Below are positions 9,375 to 23,445 of a DNA stretch of 64,000 nt, one piece after another. The number at the start of each line of letters is the position of its first letter. Position 1 is the first letter of the stretch. The position numbers were made by a program, and so were the translations under genes. The stretch spans positions 124,001 through 188,000 of the forward strand of contig JADHUC010000001.1 of NCBI GenBank assembly GCA_016784735.1, written 5' to 3'. The notes under the pieces are model-generated. The model was not told the DNA's origin. It saw nothing but the letters and a program-made list of their open reading frames with translations, and did not search any database. The DNA comes from Pirellulaceae bacterium (GTDB taxonomy: Bacteria; Planctomycetota; Planctomycetia; Pirellulales; Pirellulaceae).

Positions 9375-9674
9375 CTACCGGCCGAGGAAGTCGAGCAGCA
9401 CCCGCTCAGCCACGGGATCGTAGGTGGGTTGCGACCGGTCCAATCGTTGTTGGAGGTCGAGTTGTTCACAAGAGTACCCTTAGATGTTGGTGAGTTTGCG
9501 TTGCCCCTTGGCGTCGGTCACAATCTTCACGTCCGATCCTGCTGGTGGCCGTAAGACACTCCAGGCAAACGACAGCTTGCCGCCCTCCAGGTCGAATCCT
9601 CCGCCGTGAAAATGGGTGTTGTCGTGCGGCAGGGTATCGGCGAGACTCAAGGTTGACAGGTCGATGGCCTTTTT
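9375..9674 (-). pseudogene. Remnant of a PKD-like domain and an unknown C-terminus
   Basis: Reading from 9674 the frame gives HGGGFDLEGGKLSFAWSV, LRPPAGSD and then RKLTNI before a TAA at 9480-9482. This matches the third-strand core of the PKD-like domains in the two GH30-like genes at 19-23 kb (RGGAFDLEGDKLSFKWSV, CKVTNIAIPG). The same frame continues past the stop as EQLDLQQRLDRSQPTYDP and AERVLLDFLGR to a TAG at 9375, which looks like the end of another coding region I cannot name. Neither start nor signal is left. The high-G+C operon ends 30 bases upstream, so this scrap marks one border of that block. Confidence 0.6.
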
Positions 9675-9703
9675 TGAAGTCCTCCTTCGGTGTACTCTTC
9701 GCT

Positions 9704-10492
9704 TCACGCTACCCGCAACAGCCGCTTCAGCAGCAGGGTCGCGGTCATGGTCGCGAGCAGGTAGCCGGCCAGCCACGGCGCCAGCCCGATGCAAGCCACG
9801 CCTCCCACCACGCCAAAGAGTCGCCGCGGCTCCAGGTCCAGTTCCGTGACCCAGCCCTCCCCGTGAGCAAGTTGCGCGGGCGGGCTTGTCGTGAGGCCGG
9901 CGGAAAACGGGTGGCAAAAGGTGCGGCCGTGGCAGCGCGCCACCAGGTTGAACGCGGCGGCCGCCTCCGCCTCGACGCGCCACTCGGCCGCGGTCTGCGC
10001 GTCCGACGGTTCCATCCGCCGGATCCACCCCGTGGCCGCGCTCAGCTCTGGGGCCGGCACCACGTGGGCCAACCGGCCCGCGGCCGACGCCGGCCCGCGC
10101 AATCGCAGCACGATCTGCGCGCCGGGCCTGGGGGGAAGGTTGGGCAGGCGCTCGAACGCCCACGTGCCTAACACGGTCAGGGGCAACAGGATTGCCAGCA
10201 ACGGCAGGCCTTCGGCCCGCAGTGCTTTGAGCCCCAGATCCAGCGCGGTCTTGCGCATACGTTCCAGTGCCGCCGCGTCCCGTTCGCGGCGCGCCTCCCG
10301 GCGCCGTTCGGCCAACCGGCGGCGATCAGCCCGGATGCGCCACAGCAGGTCCTGATCGGCCGCCCAGCGGCGGGCCGCCACGATCACCAGGGCGCTGGCC
10401 AGCGACATCGCGGGCAGAACCCAGCCCTCGGGCAGACGGAGCATCCACCCGCAGGTGAGATCACCGAGCCGGATCAAGTGGTCAATCCACAC
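9704..10492 (-). CDS. EMC3/DUF106-like (YidC-superfamily-like) membrane protein
   Basis: About 262 residues from a GTG at 10492 that overlaps the previous stop by 11 bases and has AGGGGA six bases upstream. The layout is an N-terminal membrane segment (GWVLPAMSLASALVIVAARRW, about 25-40), a long charged helix likely to form a coiled coil (residues 46-91, rich in Arg and Glu, e.g. RRRLAERRREARRERD), a second membrane segment (LPLLAILLPLTVLGTWAF, 96-112), a soluble loop of about 110 residues, and one or two C-terminal membrane segments (226-254). A coiled coil between the first two membrane helices is the hallmark of EMC3/TMCO1/DUF106 proteins, relatives of YidC insertases. The assignment rests on this layout, with no sequence search. 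The large loop before the last helix is not typical. Last gene of the operon. Confidence 0.6.
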   Translation of the reverse strand: MWIDHLIRLGDLTCGWMLRLPEGWVLPAMSLASALVIVAARRWAADQDLLWRIRADRRRLAERRREARRERDAAALERMRKTALDLGLKALRAEGLPLLAILLPLTVLGTWAFERLPNLPPRPGAQIVLRLRGPASAAGRLAHVVPAPELSAATGWIRRMEPSDAQTAAEWRVEAEAAAAFNLVARCHGRTFCHPFSAGLTTSPPAQLAHGEGWVTELDLEPRRLFGVVGGVACIGLAPWLAGYLLATMTATLLLKRLLRVA

Positions 10493-11537
10493 GGGCGTCC
10501 CCTTCCATGCGCTCGACGGTCCCCCGCGCGCCGTCCACGCGGACCGCGGTGCCGGTCGGCAAGAGATCGATCGCGCCCGGCAAGACCACCGCCGGGATCG
10601 CGCAGTCGCGCGCCACGATAGCGCCGTGCGACAGCACGCCACCCCGCTCCATGACCAGGGCCCGCGCCCCGGCAAACAGCGGCATCCAGCCCGGATCCGT
10701 GGTCGGGCAAATCAGGACGTACCCGCTTTCCAGGCCCGACGCTTCCCCGGGGTCGTGCACCACCCAGGCCGTGCCTGCGGCCAGGCCCGGGGCTACGGCC
10801 ACGCCCTGCAGGCAGGCACCGTCCGCCGCGTCGTTTGATGCGCGACGGGCCGGGCAGGTCGCGAGATCGTCCAGCCGGTCCGAGTCGATCACGTCCGGCA
10901 GTCCCAGCCTCCGCCAGACCCGGTGCAGGCGCGTGCGGTCGCGGATACGGTCGCCCAGCACTTCGCGTTCGCCCTCGAAGCGATCCAGTTCCTCCCATCG
11001 CAGGAAGAAGACGTCGTCGCAGTCGGGCCGGTTCGGGTCCGCGGTGAAGGCGATGCCGGAAACCTCCGACGGGAACATCTCCTGCACCGTGACCGCCGTG
11101 CCGGAGAGACCCGTCAATCCGTTGTGACGGCGGTACGCCTCGGCCCGATCCGAGTGCCAGGAATCGAACACCGTCCCGATCGCACTCAGCAACTGTGCCC
11201 AGGGCTCGTGCGGAAACGGCTGCCCGGTGTGCTCTTCGTAAACCTCCTCGCAGGCCGAAGCCAGGCGTTGGGCCTGTTGCGGGGCCAGGGACGACGGATC
11301 CGGCGACGGCAGACCAACCCGCTCGGCCGCTTCCAAAAGCCGCCGCGCCGGCACCCCCGCCGACGCACAAAACGACGAGACGAACCCCGCAGGGACCGGC
11401 AGGCCCGTGCTGCTCATCCGGATGAGGCCCGCCGCCTTGCCACCGACCCGTTCGGGCACCGCGTCTTCGGTGCGGGCCCGGTCGCGGCCGCCAAAAAAGA
11501 CGAGCCTTTCCCGCGAGCGATCCTGCGTCGGTTTCAC
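10482..11537 (-). CDS. Miniature PEP-utilising protein (PEP synthase/PPDK-like) with swivel His domain
   Basis: 351 residues, GTG start at 11537 overlapping the previous stop (GTGA). Residues 31-58 match the N-terminal loop of the PPDK/PEP-synthase ATP-grasp (VGGKAAGLIRMSSTGLPVPAG), and residues 121-168 match a later part (IGTVFDSWHSDRAEAYRR, then QEMFPSEVSGIAFTADPN). Residues 245-345 are a complete swivelling phosphohistidine domain with ERGGVLSHGAIVAR, catalytic His about 304. Absent are the VRSSA-x-E-D segment, the distal half of the ATP-grasp and the C-terminal PEP/pyruvate barrel, so the protein is under half the length of rifampin phosphotransferase or PEP synthase. It may accept a phosphate from another partner or act as a sensor. 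Fourth of five operon genes, coupled to both neighbours. Confidence 0.8.
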   Translation of the reverse strand: MKPTQDRSRERLVFFGGRDRARTEDAVPERVGGKAAGLIRMSSTGLPVPAGFVSSFCASAGVPARRLLEAAERVGLPSPDPSSLAPQQAQRLASACEEVYEEHTGQPFPHEPWAQLLSAIGTVFDSWHSDRAEAYRRHNGLTGLSGTAVTVQEMFPSEVSGIAFTADPNRPDCDDVFFLRWEELDRFEGEREVLGDRIRDRTRLHRVWRRLGLPDVIDSDRLDDLATCPARRASNDAADGACLQGVAVAPGLAAGTAWVVHDPGEASGLESGYVLICPTTDPGWMPLFAGARALVMERGGVLSHGAIVARDCAIPAVVLPGAIDLLPTGTAVRVDGARGTVERMEGDARVD

Positions 11538-14182
11538 GGCACATTCCCCCTGACGCTGGCCGCGCGCTGGCCCGCGCGGACGATCCCGGTTGCGGTCCCG
11601 AAATACACATCACCGCCCGCCGCGACGAGCGGGGTGAAGATCCTTTCGTCCCCGGACAACCGCAGGAACGTCCTCCCCGTGGTCACGGTGTCCAAGGACG
11701 TGCGCACCACGCCGCGGCCGCGGTACACGAACAGGGAATCGCCGGCAAGCAGAGGCGGGAAACGCCCCCCGAGACCGGGATACGATTTCAGGACCCGCCC
11801 GGCATCGGCGTCCAGCAGGATCATCCGCTCGTCACCGGTGACTGCCGCCGCGAACGCCCCCTGGCCTACCAGGGGTGCGACCACACCCGCCGGGTCCGTG
11901 CAGCGCCAGGTTTCCGCGCCGTCGCACAGGGACAAGGCAATCACGCCGCCTTCCGTTCCTAGGAGAATTCGCTCCCCCTGCAGGATCGGGCCCGTGGTCG
12001 GCACGACATCCAGGCGGCGAGCCCAAAGCTCCGCCCCGGTCTCTGCGTCCAAGACGACCAACAACGCCGGGTCAGCGAATGCTGCGATCACCCGCGCGTC
12101 GGCCTCCAGGGGCATGCCAACGCCCGCGCCCGCACCAAACCGCCAAAGCCGATTGGGCGCGCGATCCCCGTCCAGTGCGAGGCATTCCACCGCGCCGCCC
12201 TTCCCCGAGGCGGCCAGCAGCCTGCCTTGGCCCAGCGCGAACGTGCCGTCCGCCTCCGCGGCTACAGGCCAGGACCAGGCCGGCGTCCCGTCATTGACCC
12301 GGAACGCCAGCAGTTCTCGCTCGCTCTCCCCGGCACGTCCGGTGAGCGCATACACACAGCATCCGTCCACGGCAAGGGGCTGCGAGATCGCCAGCGCCGT
12401 ACCCCGGAACCAATCCACCAACGGAGCACCGTCCGGGTCTTCGGAAAGGATCCACTTCGAGAGTCCCACGCTCCCGGCCATCTCGCACGGCGCGTACAGG
12501 GCACCGTCGAGAATCCCAATCGGAGCGGTTGGCCGGCACGCAGTGGCACTGTCCGAAGACGTCCAGGTCGCCTCCGCCCGGCCGGGGAGCGGAACGCGGT
12601 CGGTGTCGCCGCTGCGGCCCGGCCCGCCCAGGAGCCCGGCCCACACGCGCGGCGGGGGCTGTCCGGGTCCACCCGCGCACACGAGCCCGTTTGATGTGCC
12701 GACGAACACGCGGCCGGCTGCCACGGCGGGCGAGCCCAGGAAGTACTCGCCCTCGTCGGGCGGCAAGAGCGGCATCTCCCACACAACGTCGAGCGTGAGC
12801 GCGTCCAGCGCGTACAGAATCCCCCCGGACGTGACCGCGTACACCCGATCGCCGGCCAGTGCCGGCGACGCCAGGAGGGGCACCGAGACGTTCCAGGTGC
12901 CGAGGCTCCCGCCGTCTGTGTTCAGGCTGTACAAGCGGCCGTCGCGGGATCCGAAAAACAGCCGCTCATCCCCCGCCGCCACGGCGCCCAGCACCCCGCG
13001 CTCGGTCCGGAACTCCCAGAGGGTTTTGCCCGTGGCTGCGTCGAGGCAGCGGACCGCGCCGCCGGGGACACCTTCGGACCGGGCGCGTTCGATCTCTTCG
13101 GGATCGGCGCCGCGGCGCCGGAGATCGGTCAGCATCCCGTCCAGGACCTTCTCCGCCGTGTTCACATAATCGCCGTTTCCCATGCTCACGACGATCCGGC
13201 CCCTGACCACGGCCGGCGCGCCCCACACGGGGAAAGGCGTGGGCGAGCGCCAGAGTTCGGTACCTGTTTGCGCGTCCAGACAACACACTGCGCGACCGCC
13301 TTTGCCCAAGCCGATATAGATCCGGCCACCCCACGCAAGCGGCGACGATTCGGCGTCCGGGTAATCCGTGCCCCCCGCGTGCCAAACCACTCGCGGCTCG
13401 CCTGGCGGATTGGGCTTCAGTTCCAGGCAGTAGATGCCATCGTCGCCGGCGCCCACGTAGACCCGCCCGTCGCAGATGCAGGGCGAACTCTCCACGTGCG
13501 AAGCGGTCCGGAACTCCCACAGGGTCCGACCCGTGACGCGATCCAGACACACGATCCTCGCGTCGTCCGTGTCGTGCAGGCCCTCCCCGGACACGAGGAA
13601 GTCCCCGGAAATCGCGGGTGACGAAAACGTGGCGCGGTACCCCTTCAGGCAATCGGACCACACCAGGCCACCGGTCGCGGCGTCCAGGCACAGGATGCGG
13701 CCTGCGTCGCGGAACAGGCCCTTGTCCGCGGTGGTCAGGTATACGTATCGGCCATCCGATACCGGCGACGAGTACACGGCTCCGGAATCCCCGTGCGTCC
13801 AGTTCCACGCCCGCGCAGCCGGCCCCGGAACCTCGTCGAACCATCCCCGACGGTCCGGCCCGCCGCGGAACATGGCCGCACTGCACTCGTTTCCTGCGGC
13901 CGCCGTGGCGCGGCCGGTCTCGCGCAGCAGGGCCGTCGCACGCACCGCGCCGAACGCTGCGACCGCGATCATCGCGACCACCCACTTCTGGGCCCAGAGC
14001 AGGCGCAGGAGGGCCACGACGGTCCGGGGCCGGAACAGCGCCAGCAGGGTGCTGGCGATCGCGCCGGCCAGCACTCCGAGAACCACCAGCAGCGCCTGGA
14101 GCGGGCCGACCAGCACCGGCACCACCGCGACCGGTGGTTGGGAAAGGAATTCCAGGGTTGTCGCGCTCACCGGGAAAGGCAT
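11534..14182 (-). CDS. Membrane-anchored double PQQ-type beta-propeller protein
   Basis: 882 residues; ATG at 14182 begins two bases after the preceding stop. The N-terminus is not a cleavable signal: it has two hydrophobic stretches (VAVVPVLVGPLQALLVVLGV at about 18-50 and WVVAMIAVAAFGAVRATALL at about 65-86), so the propellers are held in the membrane. Then comes the usual entry (AMFRGGPDRRGW) and at least twelve PQQ-like blades with D-x-x-T-G-x-x-x-W turns (CLDAATGGLVWSDCLKG, CLDRVTGRTLWEF, CLDAQTGTELWRS, CLDAATGKTLWEF, VLDAETGAELWARR). This is enough for two propellers. Such domains often serve as binding platforms or assembly factors (as in BamB); I see no quinoprotein catalytic signature. 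Third operon gene. Confidence 0.85.
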   Translation of the reverse strand: MPFPVSATTLEFLSQPPVAVVPVLVGPLQALLVVLGVLAGAIASTLLALFRPRTVVALLRLLWAQKWVVAMIAVAAFGAVRATALLRETGRATAAAGNECSAAMFRGGPDRRGWFDEVPGPAARAWNWTHGDSGAVYSSPVSDGRYVYLTTADKGLFRDAGRILCLDAATGGLVWSDCLKGYRATFSSPAISGDFLVSGEGLHDTDDARIVCLDRVTGRTLWEFRTASHVESSPCICDGRVYVGAGDDGIYCLELKPNPPGEPRVVWHAGGTDYPDAESSPLAWGGRIYIGLGKGGRAVCCLDAQTGTELWRSPTPFPVWGAPAVVRGRIVVSMGNGDYVNTAEKVLDGMLTDLRRRGADPEEIERARSEGVPGGAVRCLDAATGKTLWEFRTERGVLGAVAAGDERLFFGSRDGRLYSLNTDGGSLGTWNVSVPLLASPALAGDRVYAVTSGGILYALDALTLDVVWEMPLLPPDEGEYFLGSPAVAAGRVFVGTSNGLVCAGGPGQPPPRVWAGLLGGPGRSGDTDRVPLPGRAEATWTSSDSATACRPTAPIGILDGALYAPCEMAGSVGLSKWILSEDPDGAPLVDWFRGTALAISQPLAVDGCCVYALTGRAGESERELLAFRVNDGTPAWSWPVAAEADGTFALGQGRLLAASGKGGAVECLALDGDRAPNRLWRFGAGAGVGMPLEADARVIAAFADPALLVVLDAETGAELWARRLDVVPTTGPILQGERILLGTEGGVIALSLCDGAETWRCTDPAGVVAPLVGQGAFAAAVTGDERMILLDADAGRVLKSYPGLGGRFPPLLAGDSLFVYRGRGVVRTSLDTVTTGRTFLRLSGDERIFTPLVAAGGDVYFGTATGIVRAGQRAASVRGNVP

Positions 14183-14184
14183 GG

Positions 14185-16008
14185 CTACTCGATTGCGATG
14201 TTGGGCGGCGTGCCCTCGACGCTCAGGGTGCGAATCTGCTCGGGCTTGCCGGGCAGACGCCACTTCAGCGTGACTTCGCCCGGCTTAAGCAGGCTGATAA
14301 ACGTCGAGGCGTTCGCGCCCACCGGCCAAGCGCCCGTGCACACGGGAACGACCTCGCCCTGCCACGCGCGCACGGTGACCGGGCCGCGGACCCCGGGAGC
14401 CAGACGCACGTGTATGCCTGGCGCGTCTACCAGGTCGTTGTAAAAGCAGGAAAAGCTCCCGTCCGTGAACGCGGCCACCATGTCCTCGGACCCGTCGCCG
14501 TTGAAGTCCATCGACGCGCAGGCGACCACGCCCGGGGCCGCGCCATCGGTCTGCTCGACCAGTCCCGTGAGACGCAGGTCGCCTTCCTCGCCCAGGCAGC
14601 GGAAGCCGCGGTTGAAGTGATACACAATGTCCGCGTCCGTGTAGGCCAGCAGCAGGTCGGTCCGGCCGTCGTGGTTGAAGTCCACCGCACGCGCGTCCGA
14701 CGCGCCGGTCGCACCCTTATAGGCGAGGCTGCCAGTGCTCTCCAGCACGTCGCGGAACCGGCCGTGCCCATCGTTCACCCAGAGGTGGTTCGCGTCGCGA
14801 TCGCTTTGGAAAACGTCCAGGAACCCGTCGGCGTCGAAATCCCCCAACGCCGGGGCCGTCGCCCGCTTGCCCACTCGCATATCGGTTCGAACGGCCGGGC
14901 GAAAACCGTCCGCGGCACCCTTCCAAAACAGCGCCCCGCCGCTTCGCGGTTGGAGCACTTCCGGGTAGCCGTCGTTGTCCAGGTCCGCCGAGATGCACGG
15001 AAAAACAACTTCCCCGGCGATGCCCGCCACCGCTCCCGGAAGGTCCGCGGCTTTCCACCCGTCCCGCCACTCCAGCAGGACCGGCCGCCCCGGTGTGCTG
15101 GCCACGATCCGGACCGCGCCGTCCCCGGCCGCCCCAGCCGGTGCCAGCCCGATGCAGGACGCGACCATGTCGAGGGCCCCAGCCGGTTCGGCCACCAGGC
15201 GGCCCGTCTTGCCAAGGTGGAAACAGAGCAACCGCGGTCCGTTGGCGCACACTAGGTCCATTCGGCCGTCCCGGTCCAAGTCGACCCACGCGAAGCAGGA
15301 CGAGGACGACGCGAGGTCGAAACGCTCGGTGGCGTCCTCGAACTTCTCGTCGTTGCGCACTCCCAGGAAAATCCGGTCACCCTCCACCGACGCGGCGAAG
15401 AGGTAGCGTTCCTTTCCCGGCAGCGGTTCCACCACCGCAAGTCCCGCGACGGACCGCCCCGACGGGGCGATCCCGATCTGATACGACCATGCCGTGCCCA
15501 CGTTGACGGGAACCGCCCCCTCCGGGTCCGCAAGGATGTAGCGGGTCATGCGGATCAGCATGTCGGTGCCCCCTGCGTAGGTCCCCGACATCTTCTGGTT
15601 CACGCCCGTCACGGCCCACGCCTTACCCCGGACCTCGCGAGCCGAAAGCCACAACCCGCCCACATTCAGGTAGCCCAGGCGGCCGGCCGAATATGTGCCT
15701 ATAAACAGCACGGCCGGCCTTGACGAGGCGGCCTGGAGAGCGCTGCGGATCGTCGGTTTCTGCTCCGCGGGACACCCCTCGATCCCGAATTCCACCCTTT
15801 CGCCTGCCGGGCCCTTGAGGGCGTCGGGCGTTGGGAAGCACCAGTGCTCCGGCGTGCCAGCCGCCAAAAGGGTTCCGACCAGGATCCGCTCGGACTGTCG
15901 CGCGAGATGGACGGGCGTGAAATCCGGATCGATGAATCCCCACGCCGAAGACGCGGCCAGCACCACGGCGGCCGCGCACGCCAGATAGAGTCCCGATAGC
16001 CTCACCAC
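14185..16008 (-). CDS. FG-GAP/VCBS-repeat secreted protein
   Basis: About 607 residues. The start is one of two adjacent GTG codons (16008 or 16005) placed 5-8 bases after a strong GGAGG; the longer reading to 16113 lacks this. A signal peptide (LSGLYLACAAAVVLAASSAWG) is followed by an N-terminal domain of unknown type and, from about residue 230, five or more calcium-binding FG-GAP/VCBS units: WVDLDRDGRMDLVCAN, ADLDNDGYPEVLQ, GDFDADGFLDVFQSD, VDFNHDGRTDLLLA, MDFNGDGSEDMVAAF. The C-terminal 70 residues resemble an ASPIC/UnbV-like sandwich (VTVRAWQGEVVPV). These proteins are extracellular and usually bind ligands or matrix. Two bases separate it from the next gene; 35 bases separate it from the previous one. 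Confidence 0.85.
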   Translation of the reverse strand: MVRLSGLYLACAAAVVLAASSAWGFIDPDFTPVHLARQSERILVGTLLAAGTPEHWCFPTPDALKGPAGERVEFGIEGCPAEQKPTIRSALQAASSRPAVLFIGTYSAGRLGYLNVGGLWLSAREVRGKAWAVTGVNQKMSGTYAGGTDMLIRMTRYILADPEGAVPVNVGTAWSYQIGIAPSGRSVAGLAVVEPLPGKERYLFAASVEGDRIFLGVRNDEKFEDATERFDLASSSSCFAWVDLDRDGRMDLVCANGPRLLCFHLGKTGRLVAEPAGALDMVASCIGLAPAGAAGDGAVRIVASTPGRPVLLEWRDGWKAADLPGAVAGIAGEVVFPCISADLDNDGYPEVLQPRSGGALFWKGAADGFRPAVRTDMRVGKRATAPALGDFDADGFLDVFQSDRDANHLWVNDGHGRFRDVLESTGSLAYKGATGASDARAVDFNHDGRTDLLLAYTDADIVYHFNRGFRCLGEEGDLRLTGLVEQTDGAAPGVVACASMDFNGDGSEDMVAAFTDGSFSCFYNDLVDAPGIHVRLAPGVRGPVTVRAWQGEVVPVCTGAWPVGANASTFISLLKPGEVTLKWRLPGKPEQIRTLSVEGTPPNIAIE

Positions 16009-16043
16009 TCGAACCTCCTTTTTGCTGCATCGTGATCCGGCCT

Positions 16044-18890
16044 TCACCGGACGCCCGTGGCTCGTTCTACTTCGGCCGCCAGCCGGTACCGCTCCCGCGC
16101 ACGTTCCTGCCAACCGAAAGAATACCGCTCCATGGAGTGGATCACCGAGTTACCCTGGAAGAAGCTTAATTCTTGAGAATCCCGCGCCAGCGCGGTGCGG
16201 ACCGATGCGGCCAGCTCGCCCGAGATCTTGTTCCGGTCAAGGGCCTGCTCGAGAAATATCCGGGCCTCGGCATCCTGAATCCCCTCGATCAACGCCTCGA
16301 ACCGGACGCTGGATTCCGCGCCCTTGTCCCCGGGCCACAGCAGGAACAAGACAGGCAGCCCCGTCAGCCACTTGGGAATTTCCGCGCCGCTGTAGTGGGT
16401 GTCCGCCCACTCGTCCGCCCCCACCCGCAAGAAACCTCCGCGACCCATGGCCAACGCCTTTTCAGGCATGACCCGGAAACCGAAAGGGTAGGACAACGTC
16501 CGGAGAGCGAAGCAAGTGCCGCCCGCGCGCGGGTTGGCCAAGTGCAGGATGGGGCTCTTCCAGCCCATATCATCCCGGAATTTCGGCCACCCGCCCTGCC
16601 AGCGGATGTCGGCGATGATCCTGTAGAAGCGGTCGTCCCGGGCCCACTTGGCATTGGCCATGATCTCGTGGGGCCCGGCGGCCCAGAACACGCCCGGCGC
16701 GCAAGCGGCCAGGAAGTGCTTCAAGCCGGGGTCGGCCTCGGTCTCCAACGGGAACCCCCAGACCAGGGTCTGTTCCAGGCCGCGCCCTTTCATGTGGGCC
16801 GTCAGCGAAGCGGCGAACGCCTTCCAGGCCTCCTTCTGCGCATCGTCCAGCGGGGGCGGCGGGCCCTTCACCGGGCCCTGGGCCAAGGCCGGCCCGACCA
16901 CGAACGGCGTCCGTCGGCCCGAACGCTCGTCGGTCACCATCACTTTTGGCGGCGCGGGAGGCGTAGATGAACTTCGCATGCCCTGCATCACGACGAACTG
17001 GATCGCGCGCGGCATGCCCCAGTGCTTCACAGCCAGATCGACGTAGCGGTCCATGACGTCGTAGTCGAACGCGTAACTCCCGTCGCGCTTTCGCGTCCAC
17101 CCGATCATGGAATCGTCGCCGTTGCCGAACTCGGTGTTCGCAAGGACCGGCACGTTGAGCCAGGTGTTGCCTGCCCGGGCGAGTTCGCGGAAGCTCGCCT
17201 CCAGGAGTTCGAAATGCTCGGCGGACCAGAGCTTGACGCCGTACTGGCGGGCCACGGCGTACGGGTTCTGCTCGCAGCCGACGAAGGTCTGGAATTCCGT
17301 CGGATCCGGCAGGGCCCAGTCCAGCACCTCGAGTTCCGCCTCCAGCCGGATCGGTTCGGCTTCGTCGGCCGTCACCTCCACCGTGCCGAGGTACACGCCG
17401 GCCGCCGCGTTTTTCGGCACGCGCACTGAGACCCAGAACGGCCGCGACGTGTCCGCCGCCATTGAAACCTCTCCCGGGGGCGCGATCCGATCGTACAGGC
17501 AGACGTCCTCGGGCGACGCGATCCGGCCGAATTTCGCCAGTTCCGTGCACTTGGGAAAGGAACCGCCCAATCCACGCTCGTCCCCGAGCCGTTCGGTCTT
17601 CCACTCGCTGACCGGGTACGGCTCCATGGGAGCAATCAGGACGGTGTCCGCGGCAAGCGCGGCGCCCACCGCGTTCTTCCACGTACCGGTTCGCGCTCCC
17701 ACGCTGCCCAGCGCGCGGTCCGTGCCCACCACCACCTGGGCGGAGCACGTGCCGTTTCGGGCCGCGACCAGTCGGATTCGATTCGCGAGTTCTGACCCGG
17801 CCCGGAGTTCCGAGGACAGCACGCGCCTGTGCATGTCCTCCGCCCAGGCCTGGACTCCCGCGGGGCGGCGCGTCAGCGAGGGCACGGCCGCGGACGCGGG
17901 CCCCAGTTCCAGACGGAAGAGCCTGGCGTGCGGGAACGGCCGCTGCGGCCCGCCCCAGTTGGGCTGGATCGGGTTCGTAAGCACCACGGGGTGGAACCGG
18001 CTGGCCCGGATTTCGATCGCCAGCACGTTCGAACCGTTGCGCAGCGACGTGGCGGGAATCTTGACCCCAAGGGTCCGCGCTGCGGCTTCGGATCCCGGCT
18101 GGTAGGCGCTCTCGGAGTAGTCCGAACCGGCCGCGTCCGGCCCCAGAGGGCCGTCCGGCAGGTTTGCCCGCGCGACCTCGACGCCGTTGACCAGGGCGCG
18201 CACTCCGCCGCTGTAAACCACGCTCAGGGAAAGCACGCCCGCCCGGCCCGGGTCGTCCACCTGGAATCGCGTCCGGTAGAACGCCGACTGCAGGCGCAGG
18301 TCCACGCTCTCGTCGTACTGGCCCAGGTTGAGCGTGGTCATGCGGGCGAGGCTCCCGCCTTGGAACGGCGCGCGTTCAAGCACCCAGCCGCTGTCGTCGA
18401 AATCCACGCTCGCCCAGTCGTCCGGCGGGAATGGTCCCGGCACCGGGTCCAGGGCGCGGTGGCCGTTCAAGGTTATGAAGACCCGGTCGCGCCAATCCCC
18501 ACCCTGGCCAATCTGCTTCTTCTGGACTTGGCGCATGACCTTCTGGTAACGCGATTCGCCCAGCACCTGCCGGCCGACCGATTTCATCAGGTCCGGCGAG
18601 ACCTGGCTGGCCTCGAACCGATAGATGCGGCGCCAGCAGGCGGTTTCGTCCAGCACGGGATCGGCCGCGACAAGCGCCCCGGTCGAGGTGACGCCTATCG
18701 GCGGGTGACCGGCGGCATTTGTCGTTTCGGGAACCGTCCCGGCGACACGGGCGCTATTGAAGTTGGCTGCAGCGGGAGCTTCCGCCGCAGGGACTGGTTG
18801 TGCCGTTGTTCCGGCCGGCTCTTCATGGCTGCAGGCGGCGACGCACAGCATGATCACGGACAATGGGTAGAATCTGCAATTCTTTCTCAC
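16044..18890 (-). CDS. GH123/DUF4091-like lipoprotein
   Basis: About 948 residues from GTG 18890, which follows GGAG by eight bases and gives a compact lipoprotein signal ending in CVAACS (lipobox VAAC). An alternative ATG at 18986 overlaps the stop of the upstream gene (ATGA) but adds 32 residues before the signal. Residues about 130-350 contain a galactose-binding-like sandwich (VFITLNGHRALD, WASVDFDDSGWV, FYRTRFQVDD). The rest is a GH123-type architecture: sandwich, barrel and C-terminal DUF4091 (FLLWPGDKGAESSVRFEALI). The place where GH123 enzymes carry catalytic Asp-Glu reads WGFPLETEAD here, so activity is uncertain. First gene of the high-G+C five-gene operon; anchored in a membrane by lipid. 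Confidence 0.78.
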   Translation of the reverse strand: MRKNCRFYPLSVIMLCVAACSHEEPAGTTAQPVPAAEAPAAANFNSARVAGTVPETTNAAGHPPIGVTSTGALVAADPVLDETACWRRIYRFEASQVSPDLMKSVGRQVLGESRYQKVMRQVQKKQIGQGGDWRDRVFITLNGHRALDPVPGPFPPDDWASVDFDDSGWVLERAPFQGGSLARMTTLNLGQYDESVDLRLQSAFYRTRFQVDDPGRAGVLSLSVVYSGGVRALVNGVEVARANLPDGPLGPDAAGSDYSESAYQPGSEAAARTLGVKIPATSLRNGSNVLAIEIRASRFHPVVLTNPIQPNWGGPQRPFPHARLFRLELGPASAAVPSLTRRPAGVQAWAEDMHRRVLSSELRAGSELANRIRLVAARNGTCSAQVVVGTDRALGSVGARTGTWKNAVGAALAADTVLIAPMEPYPVSEWKTERLGDERGLGGSFPKCTELAKFGRIASPEDVCLYDRIAPPGEVSMAADTSRPFWVSVRVPKNAAAGVYLGTVEVTADEAEPIRLEAELEVLDWALPDPTEFQTFVGCEQNPYAVARQYGVKLWSAEHFELLEASFRELARAGNTWLNVPVLANTEFGNGDDSMIGWTRKRDGSYAFDYDVMDRYVDLAVKHWGMPRAIQFVVMQGMRSSSTPPAPPKVMVTDERSGRRTPFVVGPALAQGPVKGPPPPLDDAQKEAWKAFAASLTAHMKGRGLEQTLVWGFPLETEADPGLKHFLAACAPGVFWAAGPHEIMANAKWARDDRFYRIIADIRWQGGWPKFRDDMGWKSPILHLANPRAGGTCFALRTLSYPFGFRVMPEKALAMGRGGFLRVGADEWADTHYSGAEIPKWLTGLPVLFLLWPGDKGAESSVRFEALIEGIQDAEARIFLEQALDRNKISGELAASVRTALARDSQELSFFQGNSVIHSMERYSFGWQERARERYRLAAEVERATGVR

Positions 18891-18982: not shown

Positions 18983-21493
18983 TCATATTTCTTCAATCCG
19001 AATGTGATCGTTCACGTACCACTTGACCGTCACGCGGTCTCCGACGCGAAGGCGGGAAATCGCGTCGACGATCCTTTTCTCGGGACCGCCCCCATCACTC
19101 GGATTCCCACCGATCCAACGAGGAATGTAGCCGGCTGTCTTGCCCGAGTCCGATCGGATGATCACAAACGCTCTCCCTTTTTCCACGACAGTACCCACCA
19201 CGGTTCCACGGGCAACGATTCGTCGTTCGTCCTTCGCCCATTCTTCGGGCGGATCGGTAAATTCCCCGGCCGGTGCAGCCGCGGACGCCTTCGCGGCAAC
19301 GGTAACGATCACATCCTTCCGGGCAAACTTGGTGCGATCGACGACGGTAAGCTCAAACGCGTAGATGCCCTCGACGGTAAGTCCGTCTACCTCTGTGTCC
19401 GGGCTGCCCTGTTTAGCGAATGCCGGTTTGGCTCCAGGCGGCTTGCTTCTGACTCTCCACCAATGGCTGATCACGTCTCCGTCCGGGTCGTTTGTCGTTG
19501 CTGACAACAGCGTGCTGTCCTCGGGCAGCCTCAAGATTTCAGGCGTGGCTTTCGTCGCCGAAATGACGGGTGGGGGATTGGTGGGATAGACCGGCACGGT
19601 CAGCTCTTCCGAGACTGCGGTTGTGCCGTCACTGGCCTCGAACTTGAATACATGGTCGCCGGGGATGGCGATGTTGGTCACCTTGCAGGCCGTTTCGTGG
19701 GGCGACTCCAATCGCGCGGCAGAACCTGACGGCTGTTTCACAACGCTCCACTTGAACGACAGTTTATCACCCTCCAGGTCGAAGGCTCCGCCTCGTAGCA
19801 GCGTCTCGCTGTGCGGCAGCGTAACCAACACGGGAATACGATTGTGAACGTCGATGAGCGTGGGTGGCTGGTTGCCTTCGTAGACGTTCAGCAACACGTC
19901 GCGTTTCACTTCGTTGGTCCCGTCGGAAATGGTGACGGTGAACGCGTACTGTCCAGCCGCGGCAAGCCCATTCGCCTCGGTCGTCGCCGATTGGGGATTG
20001 GCGATCGCTGCGGTAGCTCCTTGCGGCTGACGTGTGACGGTCCACGAAAACACAAGTTGGTCCAACTCCGGATCCTGTGCGGCGGCAGACAGCGTGATTC
20101 TGCTGTTAGGTGATTTCAAAAACGTCGGGTTCGCCTCCCAACGCACGGCAACAGGAGCGAGGTTCCTGGCCGGATGGGGATAGACGGTCAGCACGGAGTT
20201 GCCGGGCACGTTCACGCTCAGCCGTCCGTCCGTTCCCACCGCCGTGACGCCCAGTTCTTCACACGGCTTGGAATTGACACACTGGGACAAACCGTAGTTG
20301 CCCGGAGGTAGACCGCGGAGCGTCAGCAGCCGTGGCGCGGCTGGCGGCTTTGTGTTGATCAGGACCGCGGTGATGCGGTCGTTGTGCAAGAAGGCCAGCG
20401 GCCGCAGGGACGGCTCGTCGCCCTCCACCTGGATCCGCACTGCGCCGGGGCGCACATAGTGCATGACCTGACGGAAGTTCCAGAACTGTGCGCCGCGACG
20501 AAACGAGGTGTCATCCGGCCGGAGCCAGAAGTTCTGGCCGCCGGGGCCGGGGCCGCCCAGTCCGTAGATCGACCAATATGATACGCCGCCGATGGTTAGG
20601 TCGTCGTACAGGTGGTCGATCTTCAGGTGCATGAACTCCGATTGCGCCGTATCGAGATCCTTTTCGTCGGCAAACTCGCGGATCTTCGCCATCCACTGTT
20701 GGTTTTGCCCGCCGTACCAGTGGTAGCTCAGCACGTCGACGTACTTCCATACGTCCGGATCGTCTTTGGCGTGTTGAATGTAATTCCACGTGACGCGAGC
20801 GTTGACCCCGTCGGAGAACTGACCCGTTGTCGGCAGACCGAGTCTTTCCATTCGCTCACCCAGCACCTTGGTCATCTCTGCGACGACCGCCGGTTTGAAG
20901 ACGTTATTGTTTCCCGCTTCATTGCAGATGGCGTAGTGGTTCGTCGTGACGCCGTACTTGTCGCGCAGATACGTGATGAACGAGGTAGCATACTCGGCGT
21001 ACTCGCCGGGACTTTCCAGCAGGAACGCCGGCACACTGCCCGTGCTGCCGCCGTCGAAGAACGACGGACTCAACCACAGCTCAAACGGATCGCCGCCCGC
21101 TTCGACACGTCGTTTGAACGGCAACACGTAGCCCTCGACAAACTTGTCTGCGTCGGAGGTATTGAATCTGGACAGATCCGCTTGATCGGGATCGTCGTTG
21201 TCGTTTTCCAGCTCCCATCGCGTCACGTTGCTGCGATTGCCGTTGGGCTGCTGCCACCGCACCCGTGTGATGCCCAGACTGTCGACCGCCTCGTCGATGA
21301 CTTGCTCCCGCTGCTGTTGGCTGCCTCCCAAGTAGTGCGGATTGCAGCTCCAGCCGCGGATCGTCTGGTACTTGACGTTGGCATTGACCGTGACGACTAC
21401 GTCATTGGCTCGCGACATCCGGGCATCGCCAGCGGAAAGCAAAGCGAGGGCGACGACGATGAGGACAACGGTCAAGGGTTTGGTGCAATTCAT
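18983..21493 (-). CDS. GH30-like secreted glycosidase with three PKD-like domains and a C-terminal OB-like domain
   Basis: 836 residues; ATG at 21493 after GGAGGAGAAAGTCC, overlapping the upstream stop (ATGA). Signal peptide, then a GH-A clan barrel related to GH30/COG5520: IRGWSCNPHYLGG, HYAICNEAGNNN (acid/base E192) and AQSEFMHL (nucleophile E286), then a beta-sandwich (LTVYPHPARN). Three PKD/Ig-like domains follow (from about 450, 550 and 645), with the repeated core FDLEGDKLSFKWSVVKQP. The last 90 residues (ARGTVVGTVVEKGRAF, IPRWIGGNPSDGGGP, VGDRVTVKWYV) form a planctomycete-type C-terminal domain that I recall from other secreted proteins but cannot name. Probably cleaves a beta-linked polysaccharide outside the cell. 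Paralog of the gene directly upstream. Confidence 0.85.
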   Translation of the reverse strand: MNCTKPLTVVLIVVALALLSAGDARMSRANDVVVTVNANVKYQTIRGWSCNPHYLGGSQQQREQVIDEAVDSLGITRVRWQQPNGNRSNVTRWELENDNDDPDQADLSRFNTSDADKFVEGYVLPFKRRVEAGGDPFELWLSPSFFDGGSTGSVPAFLLESPGEYAEYATSFITYLRDKYGVTTNHYAICNEAGNNNVFKPAVVAEMTKVLGERMERLGLPTTGQFSDGVNARVTWNYIQHAKDDPDVWKYVDVLSYHWYGGQNQQWMAKIREFADEKDLDTAQSEFMHLKIDHLYDDLTIGGVSYWSIYGLGGPGPGGQNFWLRPDDTSFRRGAQFWNFRQVMHYVRPGAVRIQVEGDEPSLRPLAFLHNDRITAVLINTKPPAAPRLLTLRGLPPGNYGLSQCVNSKPCEELGVTAVGTDGRLSVNVPGNSVLTVYPHPARNLAPVAVRWEANPTFLKSPNSRITLSAAAQDPELDQLVFSWTVTRQPQGATAAIANPQSATTEANGLAAAGQYAFTVTISDGTNEVKRDVLLNVYEGNQPPTLIDVHNRIPVLVTLPHSETLLRGGAFDLEGDKLSFKWSVVKQPSGSAARLESPHETACKVTNIAIPGDHVFKFEASDGTTAVSEELTVPVYPTNPPPVISATKATPEILRLPEDSTLLSATTNDPDGDVISHWWRVRSKPPGAKPAFAKQGSPDTEVDGLTVEGIYAFELTVVDRTKFARKDVIVTVAAKASAAAPAGEFTDPPEEWAKDERRIVARGTVVGTVVEKGRAFVIIRSDSGKTAGYIPRWIGGNPSDGGGPEKRIVDAISRLRVGDRVTVKWYVNDHIRIEEI

Positions 21494-23445
21494 GGACTTT
21501 CTCCTCCATTACGTTGCTCGCTTGCGGGATAAACGCGTACGGTGAGCGTCTCGGCAACCGTGTTCTCACCATCGCTTACCTCGAATCGGAACACGTGTTC
21601 GCCGGGCGTGGTGATATTGGCCACCTTGCATTTTGCCTGGCCGGGCGATTCGAGCCGGACGGCAGAACCCGCCGGCTGGCTCACGACGGACCACCGGAAC
21701 GTCAGCTCGTCCCCTTCCAGGTCCAAGCCGCCGCCACGCAGCTCGGTCGTATCTTGTGGCAACGTGACCACGACAGGCAGGCGGTTGTGGACGTCGATGG
21801 GCGCGGGCGGTTGATTGCCGGCGAAAACGTTCACCGGAGCTTCGCGTCGAACGCGGCTGTGGCCGTCGGTGGCAACCACTTCAAACACATACCGGCCGGG
21901 CGACGTCAGGCCGGTTGCCGAGGTGGTCGCCGAGTGGGGGGCAGCCAGCATGACCTTGGCTCCGGCCGGCTGACGTAGGATCGTCCACGAATAGGAGATT
22001 CGGTCAAGCTCCGCGTCTTGCGCCGCCGCCGACAAGACGAGTTCGCTGGCCGGCGTCTTGAGAAAACTGGGCTGCGCCTCCCAACCGGTGACTGTCGGCG
22101 GCAAGTTTTCGTCCGGATGAGGATAGACGGTCAGCACGGCGCCGGCAGGTACTTTCACGCGGAGAACACCGTCGGCTTCCACCTTCTTAAGGCCCAATTC
22201 TTCGTACGGTCTGGCGTCGACGGACTGGCAGATGCCGTAGTCCCCCGGCTGCAGACCACGGATCGTGACCGAGTGCGACTCCGCCAGCGGCGCGGTATTG
22301 AACAACACCGCGACGGTTCGGCCATTGCCGGAAAACGCCAGCGGTCGAATCGCCGGTGCATCGCTGCTCGCGTCGATTCGAACGGCCCCGGGCCGGACGT
22401 AGTGCATGATCTGGCGGCAGGGCCAGAACAGCCCGCCGCGGCTGAACGAAGTGCCGTCGAGGTGGAAGTGGTAATTCCGCCCGCCCGGTCCGGGGCCACC
22501 CAAAGCGGAGATGGACCAGTACGATACGCCGCCGACGGTCAGGTCGTCGTACAGCGTGTCGATGCTCAATTGATCCGACCCGGCGTGACCCGTCGGGAGC
22601 CCCTTGGCAGCGGCAAACCTGCGGATGTTGCCCCGATCCGAATTGTGCGCCTCGTCGCCGTAAACATGGTAGCCAAGCATGCCAACAAACGGCCAGAAAT
22701 CGGCGTCGTCCTTGGCCGCTTGAATGTACCTCCAACTGGTATTCGCGTCGTGACACTCGGGGAACAAGATGGAAGTGCGCAGTCCCGCAGCGCGCAATCG
22801 TGGGCCAACGGCTTTGGTCATCCGCGTCACGACTTCCACGCTGAACGGATTGTCGCCGGGAGTCCCCGCGTCTTTGCAGATCACGTAGTAGTCCGCCTCG
22901 ACGCCGTGTTTCTTCTTCAAATGCAGCAACAGCGACACGGCATACTCGGCGAATTCCTCGGGGTCCTCGATCAACCACTGCGGTACGGGACCCGTGCTGC
23001 CGCCATTGTGAAACGCCTGCGTGATCGCCAGACCGAAGCGATCACCCCGGGCCTCGACGCGCTGTTTGAACGGTAACACCCATGTCGTGACAGAACGATC
23101 GACGGACTCCGTGCCAAACGCCGACCAATTGATGTGGTGAGGGTCGCCATCGTCGTTGGCCCGTTCCCAGCATCGGACATTGCTGCGGTTACCGCTGGGC
23201 ACGGTCCAATGCACCCAAGTCAGCCCGAGTTCTTGGATCACTTCATCGAGGACTTGATCGCTGACTTCGGGCGAGATCCCGAGGTACCAGGGCATCGCAC
23301 TCCAGCCCAGAATCGTTTGGTAGTGGACGTCGGAATCGACGTTCACCGTCACGTCGTTGCCGCTAACGATGTCGGCATACAACGCAACTACGAAGAGAGC
23401 CGTTGCCAACGCCATTGGCCGCGGCTTCATTAGTCTCTCTGTCAT
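21490..23445 (-). CDS. GH30-like paralog lacking both catalytic carboxylates, with two PKD-like domains
   Basis: 651 residues; ATG at 23445 with GGAGG five bases upstream; its stop overlaps the next start by four bases. It aligns over its whole length with the following gene (LGWSAMPWYLGIS, FAEYAVSLLLHL, DDLTVGGVSYWSISALGGPG, MHYVRPGAVRI). At the acid/base site YAICNEAG becomes YVICKDAG (K191-D192), and at the nucleophile site the Glu becomes Gly (GHAGSDQL, G289). The frame is otherwise clean, with signal peptide, beta-sandwich and two PKD-like domains, so it looks like a maintained binding protein or inactive partner. It lacks the third PKD-like domain and the C-terminal OB-like domain of its paralog. 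Confidence 0.83.
   Translation of the reverse strand: MTERLMKPRPMALATALFVVALYADIVSGNDVTVNVDSDVHYQTILGWSAMPWYLGISPEVSDQVLDEVIQELGLTWVHWTVPSGNRSNVRCWERANDDGDPHHINWSAFGTESVDRSVTTWVLPFKQRVEARGDRFGLAITQAFHNGGSTGPVPQWLIEDPEEFAEYAVSLLLHLKKKHGVEADYYVICKDAGTPGDNPFSVEVVTRMTKAVGPRLRAAGLRTSILFPECHDANTSWRYIQAAKDDADFWPFVGMLGYHVYGDEAHNSDRGNIRRFAAAKGLPTGHAGSDQLSIDTLYDDLTVGGVSYWSISALGGPGPGGRNYHFHLDGTSFSRGGLFWPCRQIMHYVRPGAVRIDASSDAPAIRPLAFSGNGRTVAVLFNTAPLAESHSVTIRGLQPGDYGICQSVDARPYEELGLKKVEADGVLRVKVPAGAVLTVYPHPDENLPPTVTGWEAQPSFLKTPASELVLSAAAQDAELDRISYSWTILRQPAGAKVMLAAPHSATTSATGLTSPGRYVFEVVATDGHSRVRREAPVNVFAGNQPPAPIDVHNRLPVVVTLPQDTTELRGGGLDLEGDELTFRWSVVSQPAGSAVRLESPGQAKCKVANITTPGEHVFRFEVSDGENTVAETLTVRVYPASEQRNGGESP

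Follow-up and report, generated by a model that had tools for sequence, protein, structure and literature searches.

The five-gene unit and its surroundings

The window, by which we mean the whole stretch of 64,000 nucleotides analysed here, is part of contig C83 of an 11.7-Mb Pirellulaceae MAG and carries a run of five closely spaced genes, all on the minus strand. The run begins with a GH123-like lipoprotein gene (18890-16044), which has a GTG start and an alternative in-frame ATG at 18986, and whose product contains a GH123 catalytic domain (PF13320 GH123_cat, 2e-29) scoring well over the cut-off (103 vs 23.1 bits). It is followed after 35 bases by the gene of a secreted FG-GAP protein, an integrin-type propeller (16008-14185; PF13517 FG-GAP_3, 1e-23), and after a further gap of 2 bases by that of a double PQQ-type beta-propeller protein with an N-terminal membrane hairpin (14182-11534; PF13360 PQQ_2, 8e-54). 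A GTGA overlap joins the PQQ gene to the next one, encoding an internally deleted RPH-type dikinase of 351 aa (11537-10482; PEP-utilizers 3e-18, partial PPDK_N 5e-16), which in turn overlaps by 11 bases with the last gene. This gene (10492-9704, GTG start) encodes an EMC3/DUF106-type membrane protein of 262 aa, assigned by an AF2 model and family profile matches. All coordinates, gaps and overlaps given in the first-pass annotation were confirmed. A search for a sigma-70-like promoter inside the unit found none, which is a weak negative result.

The hydrophobic stretches of the PQQ protein lie at approximately residues 17-50 and 66-84. Residues 21-40 show a mean pairwise identity of 52% and are conserved like the first propeller, with approximately 25% for the second. 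The protein shares its PQQ-type propeller repeats with BamB, though it consists of two propellers and an N-terminal TM hairpin. Assignment as BamB was rejected, as the NCBIfam BamB score was 142.9 against a 285.2-bit cut-off and the TM hairpin takes the place of a lipobox.

Two overlapping tandem paralogs with 53% identity are located directly upstream of the unit (18983-21493 and 21490-23445, minus strand), in which PKD/Ig repeats follow a possible glycoside-hydrolase-like N-terminal part, the latter with only a weak GH30 C-domain match. Just behind the unit, a short fragment at 9483-9689 (minus strand) shares 51% identity with a PKD repeat in the 18983-21493 protein and is likely a pseudogene piece left by local duplication. 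The surrounding region (871-43543) is rich in polysaccharide-acting genes, including beta-helix, polysaccharide lyase-like, PKD/PA14, malectin and SBBP propeller types.

The dikinase and its membrane partner

In related cassettes, the dikinase is normally approximately 900 aa long, with PPDK_N and PEP-utilizers domains, a C-terminal swivel domain and all catalytic residues present. Pfam searches found no PEP/pyruvate-binding domain (PEP-utilizers_C) in the cassette enzymes, whose chain ends after the swivel domain. They thus share the ATP-grasp and swivel domains with PEP synthase and pyruvate phosphate dikinase but not the domain that handles PEP, and because of this no PEP use is expected, in contrast with the label "PEP-utilising" given at first pass. 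Rifampin phosphotransferase (RPH), which phosphorylates and inactivates rifampicin, was the sole solved structure that matched an intact enzyme over its full length (E 1e-35). Superposition on the intact paralog from the same genome, also modelled with AF2, gave a Z score of 34.7; it covered 714 residues with an rmsd of 11 A, a value that includes domain movement. RPH mutants have shown a need for Lys22, Arg117, Arg666, Glu667 and His825 (PMC4844700). The corresponding residues are aligned and conserved in the cassette dikinases, namely Lys36 (28/28), Arg106 (26/28), Arg734-Glu735 (31/31) and His887 (32/32; numbering of the paralog at locus L011). Intact cassette copies accordingly share with RPH and with the split dikinases HpeHI, CreHI and PpsAB both the architecture (ATP-grasp, central substrate domain and swivel His) and the Lys, Arg, Arg-Glu-x-x-Lys and His motifs, and they are classed as a variant of the RPH-type dikinases. 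They differ from these in the added membrane partner, the three-TM fusion and the propeller neighbours. The split relatives HpeH and HpeI function in trans (PMC12167813).

The window copy, described in the first-pass annotation as a truncated mini-protein, is atypical and not the enzyme of the system; it proved to be an internally deleted version of this full-length dikinase. In BLASTP against the 926-aa paralog of the same genome, it matched only residues 10-55, 139-261 and 760-925, and residues ~56-138 and 262-759 are missing, corresponding to two large in-frame deletions. From this alignment, the window copy has lost, without a change of frame, half of the ATP-grasp and all of the substrate domain, and compared to RPH it is left without its ATP-binding and substrate domains. 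The swivel His304 is kept, while the ATP-phosphate Arg, the GLGE loop, the E/Q/R motif and the Arg-Glu pair are gone. Over the remaining swivel part, identity to most intact relatives is approximately 44-50%. On a fixed tree, the swivel branch of the window copy was 0.91 of the combined PQQ and EMC3-like branch, with a median of about 0.6 across copies; the ratios of intact copies reach 2.25, and L053, L013 and L052, all of full length, evolve faster than the window copy. No sign of free decay was thus seen, in a test that averages over the time before the deletions and would also be compatible with a recent loss. The window cassette and the second cassette of the genome, on contig C170, are only 28-44% identical, compared to 46-71% between the C170 cassette and that of locus L073, and the tree places the window and C170 cassettes apart. 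The window copy therefore represents an old separate lineage and not a recent duplicate.

The EMC3-like sequence of the window, when searched alone, had no match in Pfam, NCBIfam or the PDB, and only family profiles linked it to DUF106/EMC3. A profile of 26 family members matched the archaeal protein MJ0480 (5c8j, DUF106 or 'archaeal YidC') at 3.4e-11 over TM1, the hairpin and TM2, with a weak collinear match over TM3. With a profile restricted to 14 cassette members, the match to MJ0480 was 2.1e-5, compared to 0.12 for the next best. PF01956 (EMC3_TMCO1) was matched by 17 of the 26 members at E <= 1, and one of them, L045, scored above the curated cut-off (34.6 vs 27.1 bits). An independent profile of a second EMC3-like group matched the window protein at 6.8e-5. 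The proposal that the last gene is of the EMC3/DUF106 type thus stood up to profile comparison. The AF2 model (pLDDT 95.5) comprises an amphipathic helix, TM1, a coiled-coil hairpin, TM2, an Ig-like domain (118-201) and TM3 (239-258), and the coiled coil between TM1 and TM2 is basic. The predicted arrangement is a core of three TM helices with the hairpin on the cytoplasmic side and an Ig-like domain inserted on the extracytoplasmic side, the sidedness being inferred. Foldseek and VIA matches to the model covered almost only the Ig domain and included no EMC3 structure, and viral structures searched with the same model yielded nothing significant. The three-TM core with its cytoplasmic coiled-coil hairpin and the profile match are what the protein has in common with MJ0480, EMC3 and TMCO1. 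In contrast to these, it is bacterial, occurs in a genome that also encodes two YidC proteins, carries the Ig-like insert between TM2 and TM3, and has a dikinase as its partner. The DUF106 family has been described as archaeal and as ancestral to EMC3 and GET1 (PMC8887752, PMC8675477).

The second bacterial EMC3-like group (L091:604-5924, L092:1739-7597, L094:4912-7849 and L093:7167-7997) has a similar three-TM and Ig layout, with an hhalign probability of 99.2 to the cassette family. In L091, L092 and L094 its genes are preceded by type I phosphodiesterase-like genes (for L091 confirmed as PF01663, for the others assigned by eye). Its profile matched 60 of 294 genomes of the phylum, approximately 42 of them strongly, and a comparison of a group-2 protein with viral contigs found no relative.

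Recurrence of the cassette and gene fusions

The order FG-GAP, PQQ double propeller, dikinase and EMC3-like gene is widespread in Planctomycetota and also occurs in two Firestonebacteria MAGs. The second cassette of the same genome (L011, contig C170) holds all five genes in the order of the window, and this complete order is also present in a Phycisphaerae MAG (L073) and in both Firestonebacteria MAGs (L074 and L075); these three were among 13 loci returned by a scan of named genomes with six close EMC3-like members. The conservation of order in these four loci supports the earlier view that the genes are coupled, and the cluster is more than chance. Protein identity among the recurring cassettes is roughly 30-50%, across families and two phyla, and overlapping start/stop pairs are common.

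A four-protein EMC3-like profile matched 31 of 392 genomes of the phylum; five of these matches lie outside the cassette (four of group 2, and G048), leaving 26. Gene order was scored by six-frame profile search in 45 loci, counts that include loci fetched via the dikinase as well as many short contigs and that are not population frequencies. The EMC3-like gene was present in 41 of the 45, and in 39 of these 41 the dikinase stood next to it in the same orientation or was fused to it, so that the two are indeed recurrent neighbours elsewhere. The exceptions were L012 (genome G019), with an EMC3-like gene alone, and L096, which lies at a contig end. The reciprocal search found the dikinase in 30 of the same 392 genomes, and in 27 of the 29 in which it was not cut by a contig edge an EMC3-like gene was also present. 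The two others, G323 and G120, have the PQQ and dikinase genes without an EMC3-like gene; given these and G019, the pairing is not absolute.

Besides the EMC3-like gene, the gene of the TM-anchored PQQ propeller is the other constant neighbour of the dikinase and lay within 1.3 kb of it in 38 of 43 dikinase loci. An FG-GAP gene, upstream of the PQQ gene in many cassettes, was found on the fetched stretch in 22. GH123 occurred on that stretch in 9 of the 43 loci and immediately in front of the unit in five (the window, L011, L073, L074 and L075). The five-gene set proposed at first pass therefore holds for its widely recurring core order, while GH123 is an occasional member.

Nine loci encode the dikinase and, behind it, the EMC3-like domain in a single reading frame. 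They belong to at least three families, as assigned to the parent genomes: f87 (L063, L064 and L095), f31 (L088, L089, L090, L107 and L108) and f26 (L103). At L053:6677-12931, the order is switched to PQQ, EMC3-like gene and dikinase, and the gene pairing therefore survives rearrangement. Genes of phosphatase type (PhoX, purple acid phosphatase and AP superfamily) flank several cassettes (L077:877-2292, L079:557-1936, L074:10840-11979, L085:11056-12666 and L075:10853-11842). Each part of the cassette belongs to a known family; no description of the gene combination was found in the open-access literature searched.

Possible function of the cassette

The reading we favour, somewhat more probable than its opposite in our judgement, is that the cassette genes specify a dikinase complex of the RPH type that is tethered to the membrane. 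It is supported by the position of the dikinase next to the EMC3-like gene, or its fusion with it, in 39 of 41 loci, the nine natural fusions and the reciprocal co-occurrence in 27 of 29 genomes, together with the RPH match, the conserved residues, the EMC3/DUF106 profile match and the predicted topology. The dikinase would bind to, or be carried by, the cytoplasmic coiled coil of the EMC3-like protein. ATP would phosphorylate the swivel histidine, yielding AMP and Pi, and the swivel domain would then shift to the central domain and hand the phosphate to a hydroxyl of the substrate. The EMC3-like protein may present this substrate, which would be hydroxylated and probably lipophilic or lipid-linked, at the membrane. 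On the far side, the Ig domain, the PQQ propeller and the FG-GAP and GH123 proteins could conceivably hold or process the product or a glycan. The first-pass suggestion that phosphotransfer takes place on the inside, with the propellers facing outward, fits the predicted topology. Precedents, though not evidence, are the binding of the ATPase GET3 by the coiled coil of GET1 (PMC8675477) for the tether and the scrambling of lipids by insertases (PMC10491306).

With a phospho-carrier domain and an ATP-grasp remnant only, the window dikinase should be unable to carry out such chemistry alone. It may act in trans as a phospho-acceptor for the intact C170 paralog, for which the two-protein working of HpeH/HpeI (PMC12167813) is again a precedent and not evidence, or a non-catalytic structural remnant. 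It might also be a pseudogene left open by chance in a decaying cassette, as could be expected from two large in-frame deletions that remove the ATP-binding and substrate residues, from the presence of an intact paralog, and from a swivel branch somewhat faster than most (0.91 vs a median near 0.6). Against this, the frame, the swivel His and the start/stop coupling are retained, the swivel part has kept its identity to most intact relatives, and L053, L013 and L052 evolve faster, which leaves decay of the window cassette a real but rather unlikely explanation.

For the cassette as a whole, the EMC3-like protein could scramble or flip a lipid phosphorylated by the dikinase, in the production of lipid phosphates or lipid-linked glycans. 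Insertases are able to scramble lipids (PMC10491306), the second EMC3-like group stands behind phosphodiesterase genes, and PhoX, purple acid phosphatase and AP-type genes flank several cassettes; these phosphatases are, however, not constant, and we consider this role unlikely. A role of the EMC3-like protein as dedicated insertase or chaperone of the PQQ hairpin, or of further cassette proteins, in which the dikinase would be a regulator or energy source, would agree with the insertase function of DUF106/EMC3 relatives and with the ability of the EMC to substitute for Oxa1 (PMC8887752), as well as with the PQQ gene being a constant neighbour whose first TM segment is conserved like the first propeller. 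Yet the genome also has two YidC proteins, and in the fusions found the EMC3-like domain is joined to the dikinase and never to the PQQ protein. To our knowledge, the known insertases of the Oxa1 superfamily need no dikinase, and we regard this role as improbable. Finally, neighbourhood alone is no proof of function, and the genes could be mere neighbours. Recurrence at roughly 30-50% identity across families and two phyla speaks against this, and because of the dikinase-EMC3-like fusions in at least three families such a coincidence is very improbable indeed.

The reviews and phylogenies consulted on the Oxa1 superfamily place the three-TM DUF106/EMC3 branch in archaea and eukaryotes and YidC in bacteria (PMC8887752, PMC8675477). 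It is conceivable, though we would stop short of calling it probable, that the membrane-tethered dikinase belongs to a bacterial transmembrane system not described before. In such a system, a dikinase of the histidine-swivel type would be permanently linked to an EMC3-type protein of the Oxa1 superfamily, to which it is repeatedly fused, and phosphoryl transfer would be tied to the insertion, flipping or presentation of a membrane substrate. The three-TM branch would thus extend beyond archaea and eukaryotes and have been recruited for bacterial phospho-chemistry. Such a bacterial branch, carrying an Ig domain and fused to a dikinase, offers a tractable way to ask what this fold may do apart from insertion, and the cassette suggests a membrane substrate for the RPH-type dikinases, a large family that is mostly uncharacterised.
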